Shown here: positions 1,411 through 6,003 of the stretch, in pieces
How the letters are laid out: the number at the start of each line of letters is the position of its first letter
How positions within the stretch are numbered: position 1 is the first letter of the stretch
NCBI GenBank assembly: GCA_029100605.1
Contig: JAQXPK010000099.1
Location: 1 to 41,860, forward strand
DNA length: 41,860 bases
Source: Bacillota bacterium
Lineage (GTDB): Bacteria > Bacillota > Clostridia > Oscillospirales > Oscillospiraceae
Direction of reading: 5' to 3'
Made by a program: the position numbers and the translations under genes
The notes under the pieces: generated by a model
The model's database searches: none
What the model was told of the DNA's origin: nothing
Seen by the model: only the letters and a program-made list of their open reading frames with translations

Positions 1411-1701
1411 ATGGCAAATAGTATGCTTCGCAAATCTGTTGCGGCGGGAGCGGCTACCGAATTTAAGTTCGGTGTCCGCTCCTGTGTTTTTCTCGTAAAG
1501 AATATGACCGAGGGAAATGTATTCGTTTCCTTCGGCGAAAATCCGGGCAGCACGGATAAGATGATTCTGATTCCGCCCGGTACATGGCAGCGCCATGTAT
1601 GCCTGAATGACAGCGGTGCGCTGGCATCCTGCGATACGGTATTCGTTGTCGGCTCCGGTGAACCCGGAGATGGAGTGGAGGTTGAGTGTTTGAGATGGTA
1701 A
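1411..1701 (+). CDS. Small phage protein upstream of the DGR target, function unknown
   Basis: This 96-residue protein starts at ATG 1411 behind an AAAGGAGATG ribosome site, 14 bases after the preceding tail gene. It has no signal peptide or membrane segment. It is rich in small and beta-forming residues (AATEFKFGVRSCVFLVKN, then a PPGTWQRHV stretch), which suggests a compact beta domain. Its 3' end overlaps the start of the DGR target gene, so the two are probably translationally coupled. The context suggests a tail-fibre accessory, such as a linker or trimer-tip protein, or a chaperone for the variable protein. I do not recognise a named family; that role is inference. Confidence 0.7.
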   Translation: MANSMLRKSVAAGAATEFKFGVRSCVFLVKNMTEGNVFVSFGENPGSTDKMILIPPGTWQRHVCLNDSGALASCDTVFVVGSGEPGDGVEVECLRW

Positions 1702-3494
1702 ATGGCGGGTGTAATGACTTTATGATGTCTATGTGCGGCCCCCTGTCCGGTGGAGGCGGCACCGTGAGTTCTCCGTATAAGTATGCTGTGAAAAACGGCT
1801 ATACTGGTACTGAGGAAGAATTTGCTATGGCGTTTGTGGGCGCCTGCTCCAACGCAATCATGTTCGACACCATCTGCAATAAGCTGGTTCTTCAGGCCGA
1901 TTCCGTGGAAAAGGTCAACGAGCTTTTTGTGGAGTGGTGGAACATCAATTCCCAGTTCTGCGCCGATAAGGCGTTCCTGCTGAATCGCTGGTTCGGAAAT
2001 GTCCTGAAAGATGATCGTGTCCACGGCGTAAAACTCCCCCTGTTCGCCACCAGCACTTCCGCAATCGGCGAGCTGACGGATGACAGCGTGGGGCTGTCCT
2101 GCACGCCCTCCACGGCCGCTGTGGCTGGCAAAGATGACTTTGCATTCCTGCCCCAGTTCTGGTGCTTGGAGGTCGCCATGGAGCGTAATGCGGACGGCAG
2201 CCACACCATCAACAAGGTGGAGCACATCGACCCCATTTCTGAGGTGCGCTCCGGCAAGAACGGTCTGTGCCAGGTTCTTCAGAAGAATACCTACACCAAG
2301 GAATGGACTGCCGGCGGATACCATTACCTGCAGATGGCATGTGATCCCGCTGACAAGACAGGCTGGAACACTTGGCCCCAGGGCTCCGACAGAAATGGTA
2401 ATGTCTACGCCTACATGGCGAACCCGAAGTATTATGCCGGTCTGGATGAAAACGGCATTCCCACCTGTGGTAGCGGGCTGGCCCCTTTGAATTTTACCTC
2501 GCATACTGCTGGTGTTACTGCGTGGAGGAAGCGAGGTCCTCAGTATTCCGGCGCATCCGGTAGCCTGCTGAAATTCCAACTGCGTATGATGTGGCTGAAA
2601 TATGCGCGGAAGGGGAACTCTGGTACAATTGAAGGGTGTTCTGGTTATTACTGGGGTTATCCTGCCGCTATTTCTGAGACTGGTGCAACAAGAATCATCC
2701 TTACTGAGTCGAATGCCAGCGTTATTCTCAATGGAAGTAGCGTTGCTATTGGTCTGGTTGCAGAGGGCGGTTCTTTCGACCAGTGGGGGTCCAACAAGTA
2801 CAATGTATTCAAACACAAGCGAATTAAGAGCATTGAAAGTGTTTCCATCGATGGAACGAACTACAAGGCAATCAACTTGGAACTCGCAGATGGAGAGGCC
2901 ATTGATGTTGTGGCTGGAAGAACCTATATCAGCTCTGTACCATATGCTTCTGGCTGGAACGATGGTGTTCTTGGATATGATGGATCCAGACACAATTACA
3001 CCAACGGTAAAGAACCCGGTCTTATCCAGAAGACTGAGTTCCAGAATGGTGCATACCTGATTCTGTCCGATGAGCTGTGGCAGTGGAGTACCGATGCGGA
3101 TGGCAACTATAACTTCGACTGCTATACTTGCCATGACCAGTCTAAGGTGACCACCGATGGTACCATCTCTGCAAACTATACCAAGCAGGACGATCTTACT
3201 TTGGTGTTCCCCGCGGGTCAGGCGGCGGGCTGGCAGTACATTGAGGACATTGCTGTCAGTAATGACCCGGCTGTTATTTGGCCCGCAAAGGTCAGTACAA
3301 AGGCTGGGAGCGGTACCGGTGTCAAAGCAGGTATGAATGTTGGACCAGCTTCTTCGGGCGTGCGGGCGGCGTGGTGCTGCATTCACCTGACTAATGGGGG
3401 CTTTTGTGGGCTCGCCGCGCGCTTTTCTTTTAATTCCCCCGGTGATAGTGGTTGGAATGGCTCGGTTGGGTGCCCGTCTGGAATTTCTGGGTAG
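1686..3494 (+). CDS. DGR target protein: C-type-lectin-like variable phage receptor-binding protein
   Basis: This 602-residue protein has a short N-terminal linker with the SPYKYAVKNGYTGTEEEF motif (about 29-46) seen in Firmicutes phage fibre proteins, a central region rich in W/Y/G, and a C-terminal formylglycine/C-type-lectin-like fold ending in VR. The VR segment (residues ~556-599) starts SSGVRAAWCC and ends GSVGCPSG. Compared with the TR-encoded version, nine residues differ: I566, H567, T569, F573, F580, F582, P585, D587 and G589 replace Asn, or Thr at 585. The likely role is binding host surface ligands with a diversified face. The start is GTG 1686 (GGAGG 4 nt upstream) or ATG 1695 (13 nt spacing); neither spacing is ideal. 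A strong terminator follows at 3596. Confidence 0.92.
   Translation: MFEMVNGGCNDFMMSMCGPLSGGGGTVSSPYKYAVKNGYTGTEEEFAMAFVGACSNAIMFDTICNKLVLQADSVEKVNELFVEWWNINSQFCADKAFLLNRWFGNVLKDDRVHGVKLPLFATSTSAIGELTDDSVGLSCTPSTAAVAGKDDFAFLPQFWCLEVAMERNADGSHTINKVEHIDPISEVRSGKNGLCQVLQKNTYTKEWTAGGYHYLQMACDPADKTGWNTWPQGSDRNGNVYAYMANPKYYAGLDENGIPTCGSGLAPLNFTSHTAGVTAWRKRGPQYSGASGSLLKFQLRMMWLKYARKGNSGTIEGCSGYYWGYPAAISETGATRIILTESNASVILNGSSVAIGLVAEGGSFDQWGSNKYNVFKHKRIKSIESVSIDGTNYKAINLELADGEAIDVVAGRTYISSVPYASGWNDGVLGYDGSRHNYTNGKEPGLIQKTEFQNGAYLILSDELWQWSTDADGNYNFDCYTCHDQSKVTTDGTISANYTKQDDLTLVFPAGQAAGWQYIEDIAVSNDPAVIWPAKVSTKAGSGTGVKAGMNVGPASSGVRAAWCCIHLTNGGFCGLAARFSFNSPGDSGWNGSVGCPSGISG
3349..3481 (+). repeat. DGR variable repeat (VR)
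   Basis: This 133-bp segment at the 3' end of the target gene aligns without gaps to the TR at 3786-3918. Thirteen positions differ and every one is A in TR: seven A to T, three A to C, three A to G. The last 24 bases (3458-3481) contain no adenine and are identical to TR, as expected for the initiation-of-mutagenic-homology region. The first 32 bases also lack TR adenines and are identical. The changed bases fall mostly in codon positions 1 and 2 of AAY codons. Confidence 0.97.
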
Positions 3495-3554
3495 GGGGTG
3501 AATTGACCCCCTTGTGGGGTCAAGAGGGGGCGCCAGCCCCCCAACCCAGAAATT
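3482..3554. promoter_or_regulatory. Inverted repeat (cruciform/hairpin) immediately downstream of VR
   Basis: Bases 3482-3498 pair with 3538-3554 (16 of 17 pairs; only A3493/A3543 fails). The left arm includes the target-gene stop codon and begins one base after VR-TR identity ends. Nested inside is a perfect 8-bp hairpin, TTGACCCC (3503-3510) with GGGGTCAA (3516-3523), loop CTTGT. In Bordetella phage BPP-1 a hairpin with an 8-bp stem just downstream of VR is needed for efficient retrohoming. The inner element here resembles it; the long outer stem is additional. Function is inferred from position and shape. Confidence 0.75.
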
Positions 3555-3595
3555 ACAGACAGGGCCCCACGGAATAGGCCCAAAAGAATCATTGA

Positions 3596-3624
3596 GCCGG
3601 CGCTTTGCGCCGGCGAAATTTTTT
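3596..3624 (+). terminator. Rho-independent terminator after the DGR target gene
   Basis: A perfect stem GCCGGCGC (3596-3603) / GCGCCGGC (3607-3614) with a TTT loop is followed by GAAA and six T residues (3619-3624). It separates the tail transcript from the TR-RT unit, implying that TR RNA and RT are transcribed at least partly on their own or by read-through. Confidence 0.8.
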
Positions 3625-3643
3625 CGCAAAAATCGAAAATAAC

Positions 3644-3678
3644 GTATTGCGTTATACTTTACCATTTTTACGCAATAC
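3644..3678 (+). promoter_or_regulatory. Inverted repeat with -10-like box upstream of TR
   Basis: GTATTGCGT (3644-3652) and its complement ACGCAATAC (3670-3678) flank a 17-nt spacer that starts with TATACT (3653-3658), a good -10 hexamer. No convincing -35 sits at the right distance. It is the best visible candidate for the start of the TR-RT transcript, either as an activator-dependent promoter or as a 5' stem of the TR RNA. Confidence 0.35.
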
Positions 3679-3785
3679 AGTTCTCATGGTGTAGAGTGGT
3701 GGGGTAAATCCGAGGGTTTTCCATTTCGGAGAATCCCGACTGGGATACATGGTGCGATCCGCTGAGCTGTTAGAATTGGCTTGCC

Positions 3786-3918
3786 CTTCTTCGGGCGTGC
3801 GGGCGGCGTGGTGCTGCAATAACCTGAATAATGGGGGCAATTGTGGGCTCGCCGCGCGCAATTCTAATAATTCCACCGGTAATAGTAATTGGAATGGCTC
3901 GGTTGGGTGCCCGTCTGG
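3786..3918 (+). repeat. DGR template repeat (TR)
   Basis: This is the 133-bp non-mutated template in the same orientation as VR and upstream of the RT gene. It contains 24 adenines, 13 of which differ in the current VR. Read in the target frame it has eleven AAY (Asn) codons. Adenine substitution in AAY can reach many amino acids but never a stop codon, the usual DGR design. It lies in non-coding DNA; an open frame running through it (from 3749) only mirrors the target gene. Confidence 0.97.
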
Positions 3919-4121
3919 TTATCATCATCTAGTGCATCGAAAATTCAATGCACCATGTATTCCGCACATATCGTGAAAATTGCCTGAAACCAGCACCCTT
4001 GGTGACGGCTCGATTCAATTCGAGATAGCCCGGGGGAGCCGATGAAGGAATCGGCCCGAGGCTAGTAGCATAGGGTAAACCCGAACCCGAAAGCCTCTGA
4101 GGATAACCAGATGATGCACTA
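3919..4121 (+). ncRNA. Structured DGR spacer RNA between TR and RT
   Basis: These ~200 non-coding bases between TR and the RT start are rich in complementary segments. The TR 3' end (3912-3923) pairs with 4102-4113 (12 pairs, one G-U), closing the region. Inside are GCCGAT/ATCGGC (4038-4043/4050-4055), GAGGCT/AGCCTC (4058-4063/4092-4097) and CTCG/CGAG (4008-4011/4021-4024). GTGCAT (3932-3937) can pair locally with 3948-3953 or with a second ATGCAC copy (4114-4119). In BPP-1 the RNA downstream of TR binds RT-Avd and primes cDNA synthesis; this region holds the same position. Transcript ends are not known. Confidence 0.7.
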
Positions 4122-4136
4122 TTGGAGAGATAGCAG

Positions 4137-5402
4137 ATGAAAACATACTGCAAGCCGGCAAAGGTGAATGTGGAGAGTGCCGAGTTCAACTCGGTGGCTG
4201 TCCATAAGGCTTTTGCCGGGAAACTGAACAAGCGTGAGTTCCGCAGGCTCCTCACGGACACCGGGCTGGTCACAGCAGCGGACATTGCATCAGAGAGGGT
4301 AAATAATAGCGTTTCCAAATTACTGCCCGCTATCGACGCCGTAGCCGCCCAGATGACCGAACGCATCAGGAATCGTGATTTGAAGTTGAAGCCGGTTCGC
4401 CAATTTCAAAGGGTGGACGGAATCAGCCAGAAAATGCGTGACCTGAACCAGGAGAGTGCGGATCAGCAAGTATTGGAATACATCTGCGTGGAAGCACTCA
4501 TGCCTCTTTTCAAAGCAAAGATTCTGCCCTGTCAATGCGGAAGCATCCCGGAACGAGGGCAAACGGCTGGAAAGCGGCAAATCGAACGCATTTTGCGGAA
4601 AAAATACCATTGCGACAAGCTGGATGTGATTAAGGGCGACATCCGGCACGCTTACCAATCTGTTACGGTGGAATGTGTGATGAAGCTGCTCCGCCGAGAC
4701 ATCGGTAAGAATAAGCCCTTGCTCTGGCTCGTTGAAGCCACGATGGGGAACTACCCGGATGGTCGGCTGATGATCGGAGGATACCTCCCCACATGGTTGT
4801 TCAACTATGTAATGTCCTATGTGCTGCGCTATATGCTGTCTATCCACCGGGAGCGCCGCGGTGTCCGGCACAATTTCTGCTGGGGCTGTGTCTGCTATGC
4901 GGATGACTTCGCTATTTTCGGAAAGCGAAGCAATCTGATCCGGGCAATGAAGGAAACGACACGATGGTGCAAGCAGACCCTTTCTCTGGAAATAAAGGGT
5001 GTGTGGAACATGGCCTACTTCGTTTCCTACTATGCAGAAAAGCAGCAGTATGGAAATCGCAAGGAAGGCTCCAAAAAGCGCACACCGGGTATCGACATGG
5101 TTGGCTATGTCGTTCGCAGGACATACACCATCATAAGAGGCAAGATTTTCGTGCGAATCCGCAGGCAGATTCTCCGGGCTTCCCGGGAGCTGGAAACCAT
5201 CGGCTATATCCCCTGGTGGAGAGCATATAAGATCGTGTCCTATTATGGTTGGTTGAAAAACAGCGATAGCCAGAAATTCCGTATTAAGTACGGCGTTAAG
5301 AAGATTATGAAAGCAGCCAAACGGTCTGTTTCCATTCGAGGCAAAAAAATTACGGAGGAGGCTATTCGTAATGAAAGAAAGCTATGTTGTCAAGCCTGCT
5401 GA
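4137..5402 (+). CDS. DGR reverse transcriptase
   Basis: This 421-residue reverse transcriptase copies TR RNA into adenine-mutated cDNA that replaces VR. The palm motifs are clear: KGDIRHAY with catalytic D168, and YADDFAIF with D256 and D257. Later come LEIKGVWNM and the thumb-side GIDMVGYVVRRTYTIIRG, like other phage DGR enzymes. Motif 4, normally (I/V/L)GxxxSQ in DGR RTs, reads IGGYLPT at 213-219, so Ser-Gln is replaced by Pro-Thr. The protein is longer than the BPP-1 enzyme (about 328 aa), with an N-terminal helical extension before the polymerase fingers. There is no maturase or HNH domain, which argues against a group II intron. GGAG lies 9 nt before ATG 4137. The last 32 bases overlap the next gene. 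Confidence 0.95.
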   Translation: MKTYCKPAKVNVESAEFNSVAVHKAFAGKLNKREFRRLLTDTGLVTAADIASERVNNSVSKLLPAIDAVAAQMTERIRNRDLKLKPVRQFQRVDGISQKMRDLNQESADQQVLEYICVEALMPLFKAKILPCQCGSIPERGQTAGKRQIERILRKKYHCDKLDVIKGDIRHAYQSVTVECVMKLLRRDIGKNKPLLWLVEATMGNYPDGRLMIGGYLPTWLFNYVMSYVLRYMLSIHRERRGVRHNFCWGCVCYADDFAIFGKRSNLIRAMKETTRWCKQTLSLEIKGVWNMAYFVSYYAEKQQYGNRKEGSKKRTPGIDMVGYVVRRTYTIIRGKIFVRIRRQILRASRELETIGYIPWWRAYKIVSYYGWLKNSDSQKFRIKYGVKKIMKAAKRSVSIRGKKITEEAIRNERKLCCQAC

Positions 5403-6003
5403 GATTGAGGTATTCACCCACGGCGGCGGCACGGACATCATCATGCGGAAGAACATTCAGGAGGTGCCTGATGAAGAATCCGGCACCAAATGGGAATGTG
5501 ACGAGCGGCAGATCCGTTATGGGTCTGCCGTTTCTTTGTCTGAGGTCAAGGCGAACCTATCCCGATTCTGGTCTTTGGCTGGCGGTGAAATCCCGCTGGA
5601 AGAAGTCAAGGCGGCGAAGATCTCCGAGATGTCCGCTGCCTGCCGGGAGGCTATCATTGCCGGCTTTGATGTGGTTCTGGCTGACGGTAAGAGCCGCCAT
5701 TTCAGCATGACTGTGGAGGACCAGCTCAACATCAACTCCCTGTATGGGCTGCTGGCATCCGGCATGACACAGGTGCCGTACCATGCTGATGGGGAAGCGT
5801 GTGAGTATTTCTCTGCGGAGGACTTCGGAATCATTGTCCAGACTGCAACCGCTCACAAGACCTACCATGAGAGTTATTTCAACTCTCTCAAATCCTACAT
5901 CACCAGCAAGCGGACTGCTGCATCTGTCGATGCTATTACCTACGGCGTGGAGATCCCCACCCAGTACCAGTCCGATGTCCTGAAGGCTTTGCAGGAGGCG
6001 TAA
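5371..6003 (+). CDS. Phage tail-associated protein, function uncertain
   Basis: This 210-residue protein starts inside the RT gene at ATG 5371 behind GGAGGAGG. The N-terminus (HGGGTDIIMRKNI, then QIRYGSAVSLSEVKANLSRF) reads like a short fibre-linked segment. The C-terminal two thirds holds CREAIIAGFDVVLADG, HFSMTVEDQLNIN, YHADGEACEYFSAEDF and TAHKTYHESYFNSL, a pattern I associate with proteins encoded downstream of tail fibres in Clostridia phages. There is no signal peptide or membrane segment. Overlap with RT means co-expression, so a role as a DGR accessory cannot be excluded. However, it lacks the size (about 125 aa) and basic helical character of Avd. A tail assembly or fibre attachment role is inference. 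Confidence 0.65.
   Translation: MKESYVVKPAEIEVFTHGGGTDIIMRKNIQEVPDEESGTKWECDERQIRYGSAVSLSEVKANLSRFWSLAGGEIPLEEVKAAKISEMSAACREAIIAGFDVVLADGKSRHFSMTVEDQLNINSLYGLLASGMTQVPYHADGEACEYFSAEDFGIIVQTATAHKTYHESYFNSLKSYITSKRTAASVDAITYGVEIPTQYQSDVLKALQEA

Follow-up and report, generated by a model that had tools for sequence, protein, structure and literature searches.

The 41,860-nucleotide (nt) window analysed here, positions 1 to 41,860 of contig JAQXPK010000099.1 (Bacillota bacterium, Oscillospiraceae; GenBank assembly GCA_029100605.1), very probably carries an active-type diversity-generating retroelement (DGR) of a phage or prophage, for which a template mechanism based on two RNA helices, P0 and P1, is proposed. 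The template repeat (TR), the variable repeat (VR) and an open reverse transcriptase (RT) gene, by which the element had been identified in the initial annotation, are all present. The DGR is known in kind, and VR variation between near relatives is ordinary DGR biology. The combination of an RT clade that lacks the SQ motif and, apparently, Avd with a helix that brackets the TR is a variant worth a test.

The TR/VR pair and an RT without the SQ motif

The core features of the element are as follows.
1686–3494, + strand: DGR target gene, 602 amino acids (aa), GTG start; phrog_17147, tail-module position
3349–3481, + strand: VR, encodes the C-terminus of the target
3786–3918, + strand: TR, aligned with VR
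4137–5402, + strand: RT gene, 421 aa, open frame; motif 4 IGGYLPTW replaces GxxxSQ, active site YADD

TR and VR align without gaps over 133 base pairs (bp) with 13 mismatches, every one at a TR adenine (A to T at seven positions, A to C at three and A to G at three). All 109 non-adenine positions and 11 of the 24 adenines are unchanged, and the identity ends abruptly at both borders. Random placement gives P = 7e-12 that all 13 mismatches land on the 24 adenines. VR forms the in-frame C-terminal part of the target open reading frame (ORF), where eight of the eleven AAY codons encode an altered residue. On recount, the alignment in the initial annotation proved exact to the base and its codon count was reproduced; the intact RT ORF follows TR as had been claimed. 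Thus, the locus has an adenine-mismatched TR/VR pair, a VR inside the target ORF and a DGR-type RT adjoining TR, and sequence comparison supports mutagenic retrohoming (see below). A scan of the host assembly allowing up to three mismatches returned only TR and VR themselves, and hence no remote VRs; the exact TR/VR backbone pattern had no matches in viral contigs.

The identity of the enzyme as a group II intron RT was considered and ruled out, as Pfam gave RVT_1 only, TIGR04416 scored 37.1 bits, below its cut-off of 300, and no intron family reached Rfam gathering scores in the window, where only a tRNA was found. The order of target with VR, TR and RT is that of the DGR of Bordetella phage BPP-1 (NC_005357), and the BPP-1 RT (bRT; structure 8ub7) was the best Foldseek and VIA row for the predicted fold of the window RT. 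The two enzymes differ in length (328 aa in BPP-1, 421 aa in the window) and in both motifs, BPP-1 having SQ and YMDD where the window RT has PT and YADD. P218-T219 of the window RT align with S186-Q187 of bRT, and the canonical motif 4, (I/V/L)GxxxSQ, is absent; Q was found at this position in none of 120 homologues. The canonical active site Y(V/M)DD is also absent, (Y/F)ADD being present in 120/120. The residues aligned with R74 and I181 of bRT are the same as in BPP-1, R and I being kept in all 120 homologues.

The dipeptide at the SQ position in this clade is PT, PA, PS, SC, ST, PC or SA. In 25 loci with SQ-less RTs, TR and VR were mismatched at 387 of 673 adenines versus 15 of 2889 other positions. 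The corresponding counts were 148/266 and 13/905 in 11 loci with SQ RTs, and 42/83 and 1/307 in three loci with CQ RTs. L001, L002, L003, L004, L005, L044, L061 and L062 were excluded as second copies of counted contigs, and the random-placement test and recount were made without L026 (RT broken; 8 A and 6 non-A mismatches) and L057 (RT unaligned; 11 A and 1 non-A). No TR/VR pair was found in the fetched stretch of 12 RT loci (L006, L010, L011, L013, L015, L016, L021, L023, L032, L034, L047 and L053). As the SQ-less clade is as adenine-strict as SQ-type DGRs, SQ is dispensable for adenine specificity, which, as judged by these sequence comparisons, is independent of the SQ dipeptide here. The clade thus provides a natural experiment against SQ as the cause of adenine specificity.

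Three points weigh against this conclusion. One SQ-less locus, L022, has 15 A and 8 non-A mismatches and so contributes 8 of the 15 non-A mismatches in the 25 loci; the TR/VR finder penalised non-A mismatches, favouring strict loci; and the recount was base-blind, yet made only at the places that this finder gave. An independent base-blind scan of 13 phage records, in which the second-ranked repeat was used for L082 and L080 gave none, returned 12 records with a repeat mismatched mainly at the adenines of one copy.

DGRs with a motif 4 lacking SQ have been described among the DiGReF elements and in crAssE-Sib (GxxxSP; PMC11054128), and 'PA' is listed among the SQ variants of 15 of 155 DiGReF elements, with adenine exchanges (PMC3521204). 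The present case differs in that a whole clade combines SQ replacements with adenine-directed TR/VR pairs. Motif-based finders may miss such DGRs; the failure of myDGR on crAssE-Sib was explained in this way by the authors of the 2024 crAssE-Sib study (PMC11054128).

Two further RTs, of L052 and L055, have the motif LPKGFYPSPW and K at the position of bRT I181, which is I in the other 49 of 51 aligned RTs. Both loci are still adenine-directed, with 15 and 14 changes at adenines versus 1 and 0 at other bases, respectively.

The initial annotation had called the DGR complete. This holds for TR, VR and RT; however, the RT lacks the SQ motif and no Avd was detected. In BPP-1 Avd is encoded between VR and TR, and none was found in the window. 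The Avd model NF033474, which finds the Avd of BPP-1, matched none of 17 records, comprising the genome of the window and 16 records of related phages, several of which are fragmentary. When the ORFs around 14 RTs were clustered, the sense ORFs shared by more than 5 of the loci were the target, the RT, the DUF4376 protein, a CmpB-like protein and a frame overlapping TR, with no Avd candidate among them, smaller clusters lying outside this check. PF05635, which missed the Avd of BPP-1 as well, matched two host proteins on other contigs (C14:11281-11586 and C82:29129-29290), which could in principle act in trans. Avd is likely absent from this DGR; on the other side, an Avd may have diverged beyond the reach of the model or be supplied in trans. 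With the BPP-1 system rebuilt in E. coli, repair is described as falling to ~1e-9 without Avd (PMC12875486). An Avd-like domain is reported to accompany ~62% of the DGR RTs of complete genomes (PMC8934634), and an Avd-less DGR alone is therefore not rare.

Proposed helices bracketing the template repeat

The following predicted elements, all on the + strand, were delineated around TR and VR.
3742–3755, + strand: P0 helix, 5′ strand (GGGATACATGGTGC), 30 nt 5′ of TR
3950–3963, + strand: P0 helix, 3′ strand (GCACCATGTATTCC), in the spacer 3′ of TR
3915–3922, + strand: P1 helix, 5′ strand, at the 3′ end of TR; paired with 4103–4110; mostly invariant
4103–4110, + strand: P1 helix, 3′ strand, directly before the RT gene
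3965–3975, + strand: P2, small spacer hairpin, followed by AAAAT, invariant in 23 loci
4058–4097, + strand: P3, spacer hairpin (GAGGC..GCCTC), with covariation
3467–3498, + strand: VR-end inverted repeat, 5′ arm; candidate target-recognition hairpin or cruciform; partner 3538–3569
3538–3569, + strand: VR-end inverted repeat, 3′ arm; partner 3467–3498

RNAalifold on 23 spacers gave 10 pairs in three helices. In the enlarged set of spacer helices 86.3% of cells were paired, a value as high as which was seen in 0/500 shuffles, with slid partners reaching at most 39%. The inverted-repeat listing of the window showed the two P0 strands, complementary to each other and flanking TR. A P0-equivalent helix was found in 20 of the 23 loci; in a few, the best of 60 shuffles scored equally. 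The three loci without P0 are L015, L021 and L023, in which the target ORF runs into TR; P0 is missing there because the native upstream flank is absent, and the helix alignment comprised the other 20 loci.

In these 20 loci P0 has 14 pairs, with 98.6% of cells paired and two-sided changes in 11 of the 14. For P0, P1, P2 and P3 together 95.0% of cells pair versus at most 46.8% with slid partners, and 0/500 shuffles reached the covariation score and 1/500 the number of pair types. The 20 loci share ancestry, which the shuffles leave uncorrected and the slid controls retain. The covariation is uneven: P0, P2 and P3 covary, and the proposal is weakened by P1, which hardly does so (0/5 core pairs two-sided, outer pairs 74–78% paired). 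P0 and P1 cross, and the RNA would therefore be a pseudoknot. A priming helix between the spacer sequence GAAACCAG and the TR end CTGG was also considered; its pairing is near-invariant, so that covariation is uninformative, it fits poorly in L013, L014 and L021, and it is not claimed.

The generality of P0 was assessed in 52 loci, in each of which the best helix between the pre-TR stretch and the spacer was scored against dinucleotide shuffles, a pass meaning that no more than 2 of 100 shuffles scored as well. The test was passed by 32/52 loci, including 17/17 of the clade of the window (PT, PA, SC and ST), and by none of 50 VR flanks. Helix scores of at least 10 were reached by 37/52 own pairs versus 2/50 VR flanks and 27/336 swapped pairs. 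Among the 12 phage records added for this assessment, Psychrobacillus phage Perkons (L082) and Faecalibacterium phage FP_Epona (L079) stand out as strong distant cases. The position of P0 is upstream of the TR/VR homology, the distance from its 5′ strand to the start of homology being 2 nt in 5/6 PA loci, 1 nt in 3/4 DA loci and ~30 nt in the window. P0, as a helix inferred from covariation, would most naturally be the template border and address label of the template RNA.

No P0-equivalent helix was found in the literature searched, which excluded the paper on the structure of the BPP-1 complex (8ub7). The BPP-1 spacer is described as adopting a fold that recruits bRT-Avd, with reverse transcription being ended by a motif 5′ of TR (PMC12875486). 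In BPP-1 the best pre-TR/spacer pairing, with a core of 8 bp near -70 and +72 (1/100 shuffles), may be a different helix from P0.

That P0 is instead a DNA or transcription element, e.g. a regulator site, and no part of the template RNA is unlikely. In favour of such an element, what is shown for P0 is covariation, but the P0 strands flank TR at a distance of ~195 nt from each other in the window, the pairs include G-U as well as Watson-Crick ones, and VR flanks never passed the shuffle test; the part played by the spacer and by the upstream motif in BPP-1, as described above, also points to RNA. A helix of the template RNA is thus preferred for P0.

The VR-end inverted repeat has 32-nt arms, 84% complementary, with 39 nt between them. 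An inverted repeat follows VR in BPP-1 as well, where a hairpin or cruciform at this site is described as important for homing; phage DGRs are described there as having 4-nt hairpin loops, in contrast to the 39 nt in the window (PMC3240598). Twenty loci were compared. L007, L008, L009 and L029 have 12–21 nt arms at the equivalent VR-end site, L012, L030 and L031 have 12–15 nt arms with 4–6 nt loops ~27–30 nt past VR, and in six PA loci the VR-end inverted repeats were no stronger than in control stretches.

In the proposed mechanism, the TR-carrying RNA would fold together with its flanks, P0 joining the region 5′ of TR with the spacer and P1 joining the 3′ end of TR with the region that precedes the RT gene. 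The resulting P0/P1 pseudoknot would label the RNA as template. The RT would copy TR, misincorporating at adenines and halting near P0, and the complementary DNA (cDNA) would replace VR, guided by the 3′ end that TR and VR have in common and by the inverted repeat that follows VR.

It is suggested, as a tentative generalisation that may well not hold, that a bracketing P0 is a general part of DGR RNAs, which marks the template and the cDNA end and spares the target mRNA, and that together with residues of the R74/I181 type it suffices for adenine-directed diversification without SQ or Avd. The shuffle test speaks against such generality, as just 15/35 DGRs outside the clade of the window passed it. 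If the bracketing helix is a real RNA structure, it would provide a rule by which the borders of DGR templates could be found, and a specific element that can be broken to test template choice.

Support for retrohoming in the lineage

The check on related strains proposed with the initial annotation was run on protein relatives of the target, with 120 proteins compared and per-protein rows obtained for 20 of the 120. P0121 (98.6% identical to the target outside VR) differs at 11 of the 13 TR-adenine codons, P0122 (96.1%) at 9, P0128 (97.5%, a fragment) at 10 and P0123 (83.2%) at 10, and each at 0/30 other VR codons. Summed over the four, 40/52 adenine codons and 0/120 other VR codons differ; the changes are thus confined to TR-adenine codons. 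Farther homologues vary at other VR codons too, as their TRs must.

At the DNA level, the closest phage contigs, L008 and L009, have 27 TR adenines and 101 non-adenines in common; their VRs differ at 18 of the former and at none of the latter. In all pairs of 14 strict loci, drawn from the PT and PA loci among the 25 SQ-less loci, 2740 of 2748 non-A differences between TRs were mirrored in both VRs, a figure that is in part a product of choosing strict loci and comes from non-independent pairs. VR tracks its own TR at non-A positions and therefore keeps being rewritten from it. The near-relative VRs and this concerted evolution of TR and VR support the mutagenic retrohoming suggested for the lineage by the initial annotation. 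One observation pulls the other way. In the 11 AAY columns of the 120 homologues four residues (2 Met and 2 Glu) are unreachable from AAY by changes of A, the TRs of these homologues being not known.

An element that is now inactive and merely records past retrohoming would agree with the single genome and single VR available, and decay does occur in the family, L026 having a split RT with 6 non-A and 8 A mismatches. Such a relic is nevertheless improbable, as the RT gene of the window is open and its protein strongly constrained (dN/dS ~0.05 versus L006, dS being near saturation), none of the 109 non-A positions has drifted, and P0121, the relative with 98.6% identity outside VR, is changed at 11 of the 13 adenine codons. 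In L026 (L026:3032-4600) the RT is split across two reading frames at motif 4, which looks like a decaying DGR, in one case.

That biased mutation of an old duplicate, or a mixed assembly, gave rise to the pattern is scarcely credible: some related contigs are visibly affected, three having a target ORF that runs into TR and one having both ends in VR-like sequence, but in the window every mismatch is at one base of one copy, 39 distinct loci are mismatched mainly at TR adenines (the least strict being L040, with 12 A and 7 non-A, and L022, with 15 and 8), and the base-blind scan agrees in 12/13 further phage loci. An active-type DGR is thus the preferred reading.

The contig with VR-like ends is that of L006 (IMGVR_UViG_3300001598_001109, 58085 bp; 57968-58085 and 1-19), as if population variation in VR broke the circular assembly. 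In L015, L021 and L023 and in proteins P0126 and P0136 the target ORF continues straight into TR and its downstream flank, and this VR/TR collapse is either an assembly artefact or a recombination deletion.

Probable prophage setting and the target protein

Two neighbouring genes complete the feature list.
2–1396: protein with several List_Bact_rpt (Listeria-Bacteroides, InlB B-type) repeats, phage-borne, just 5′ of the DGR target
5371–6003, + strand: DUF4376 protein, phrog_1348 tail fiber, 32-bp overlap with the 3′ end of the RT gene

The contig begins within a phage tail region, with the gene order List_Bact_rpt protein, 96-aa ORF, target, DGR, DUF4376 protein, CmpB-like protein, endolysin (carrying an M15 peptidase domain) and a pair of holins. 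Host-looking genes (PP-loop protein, DusB) follow from ~13.1 kb on. The DGR, placed in a tail/lysis module, is thus likely carried by an integrated prophage, the left end of which is off the contig. The host assembly is fragmented (2.0 Mb, 84% complete) and has a single RT match, with no second RT in it.

The target has 680 homologues at E <= 0.001, no PDB sequence relative of note, and no Pfam domain common to more than 5 of 30 relatives. Judging by gene position, the product of the rewritten gene is probably a receptor-binding or fibre protein of the tail; less favourably for this assignment, the predicted fold was too poor for use, with a mean predicted local distance difference test (pLDDT) score of 47. 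Phage DGR clades 1, 4 and 6 of Roux et al. 2021, to which the likeness is by description only, are also phage-encoded; they are described as seemingly diversifying host-attachment proteins, with Firmicutes among the predicted hosts (PMC8144416). A relative of the DUF4376 protein lies 3′ of the RT gene in 10 of 14 loci.

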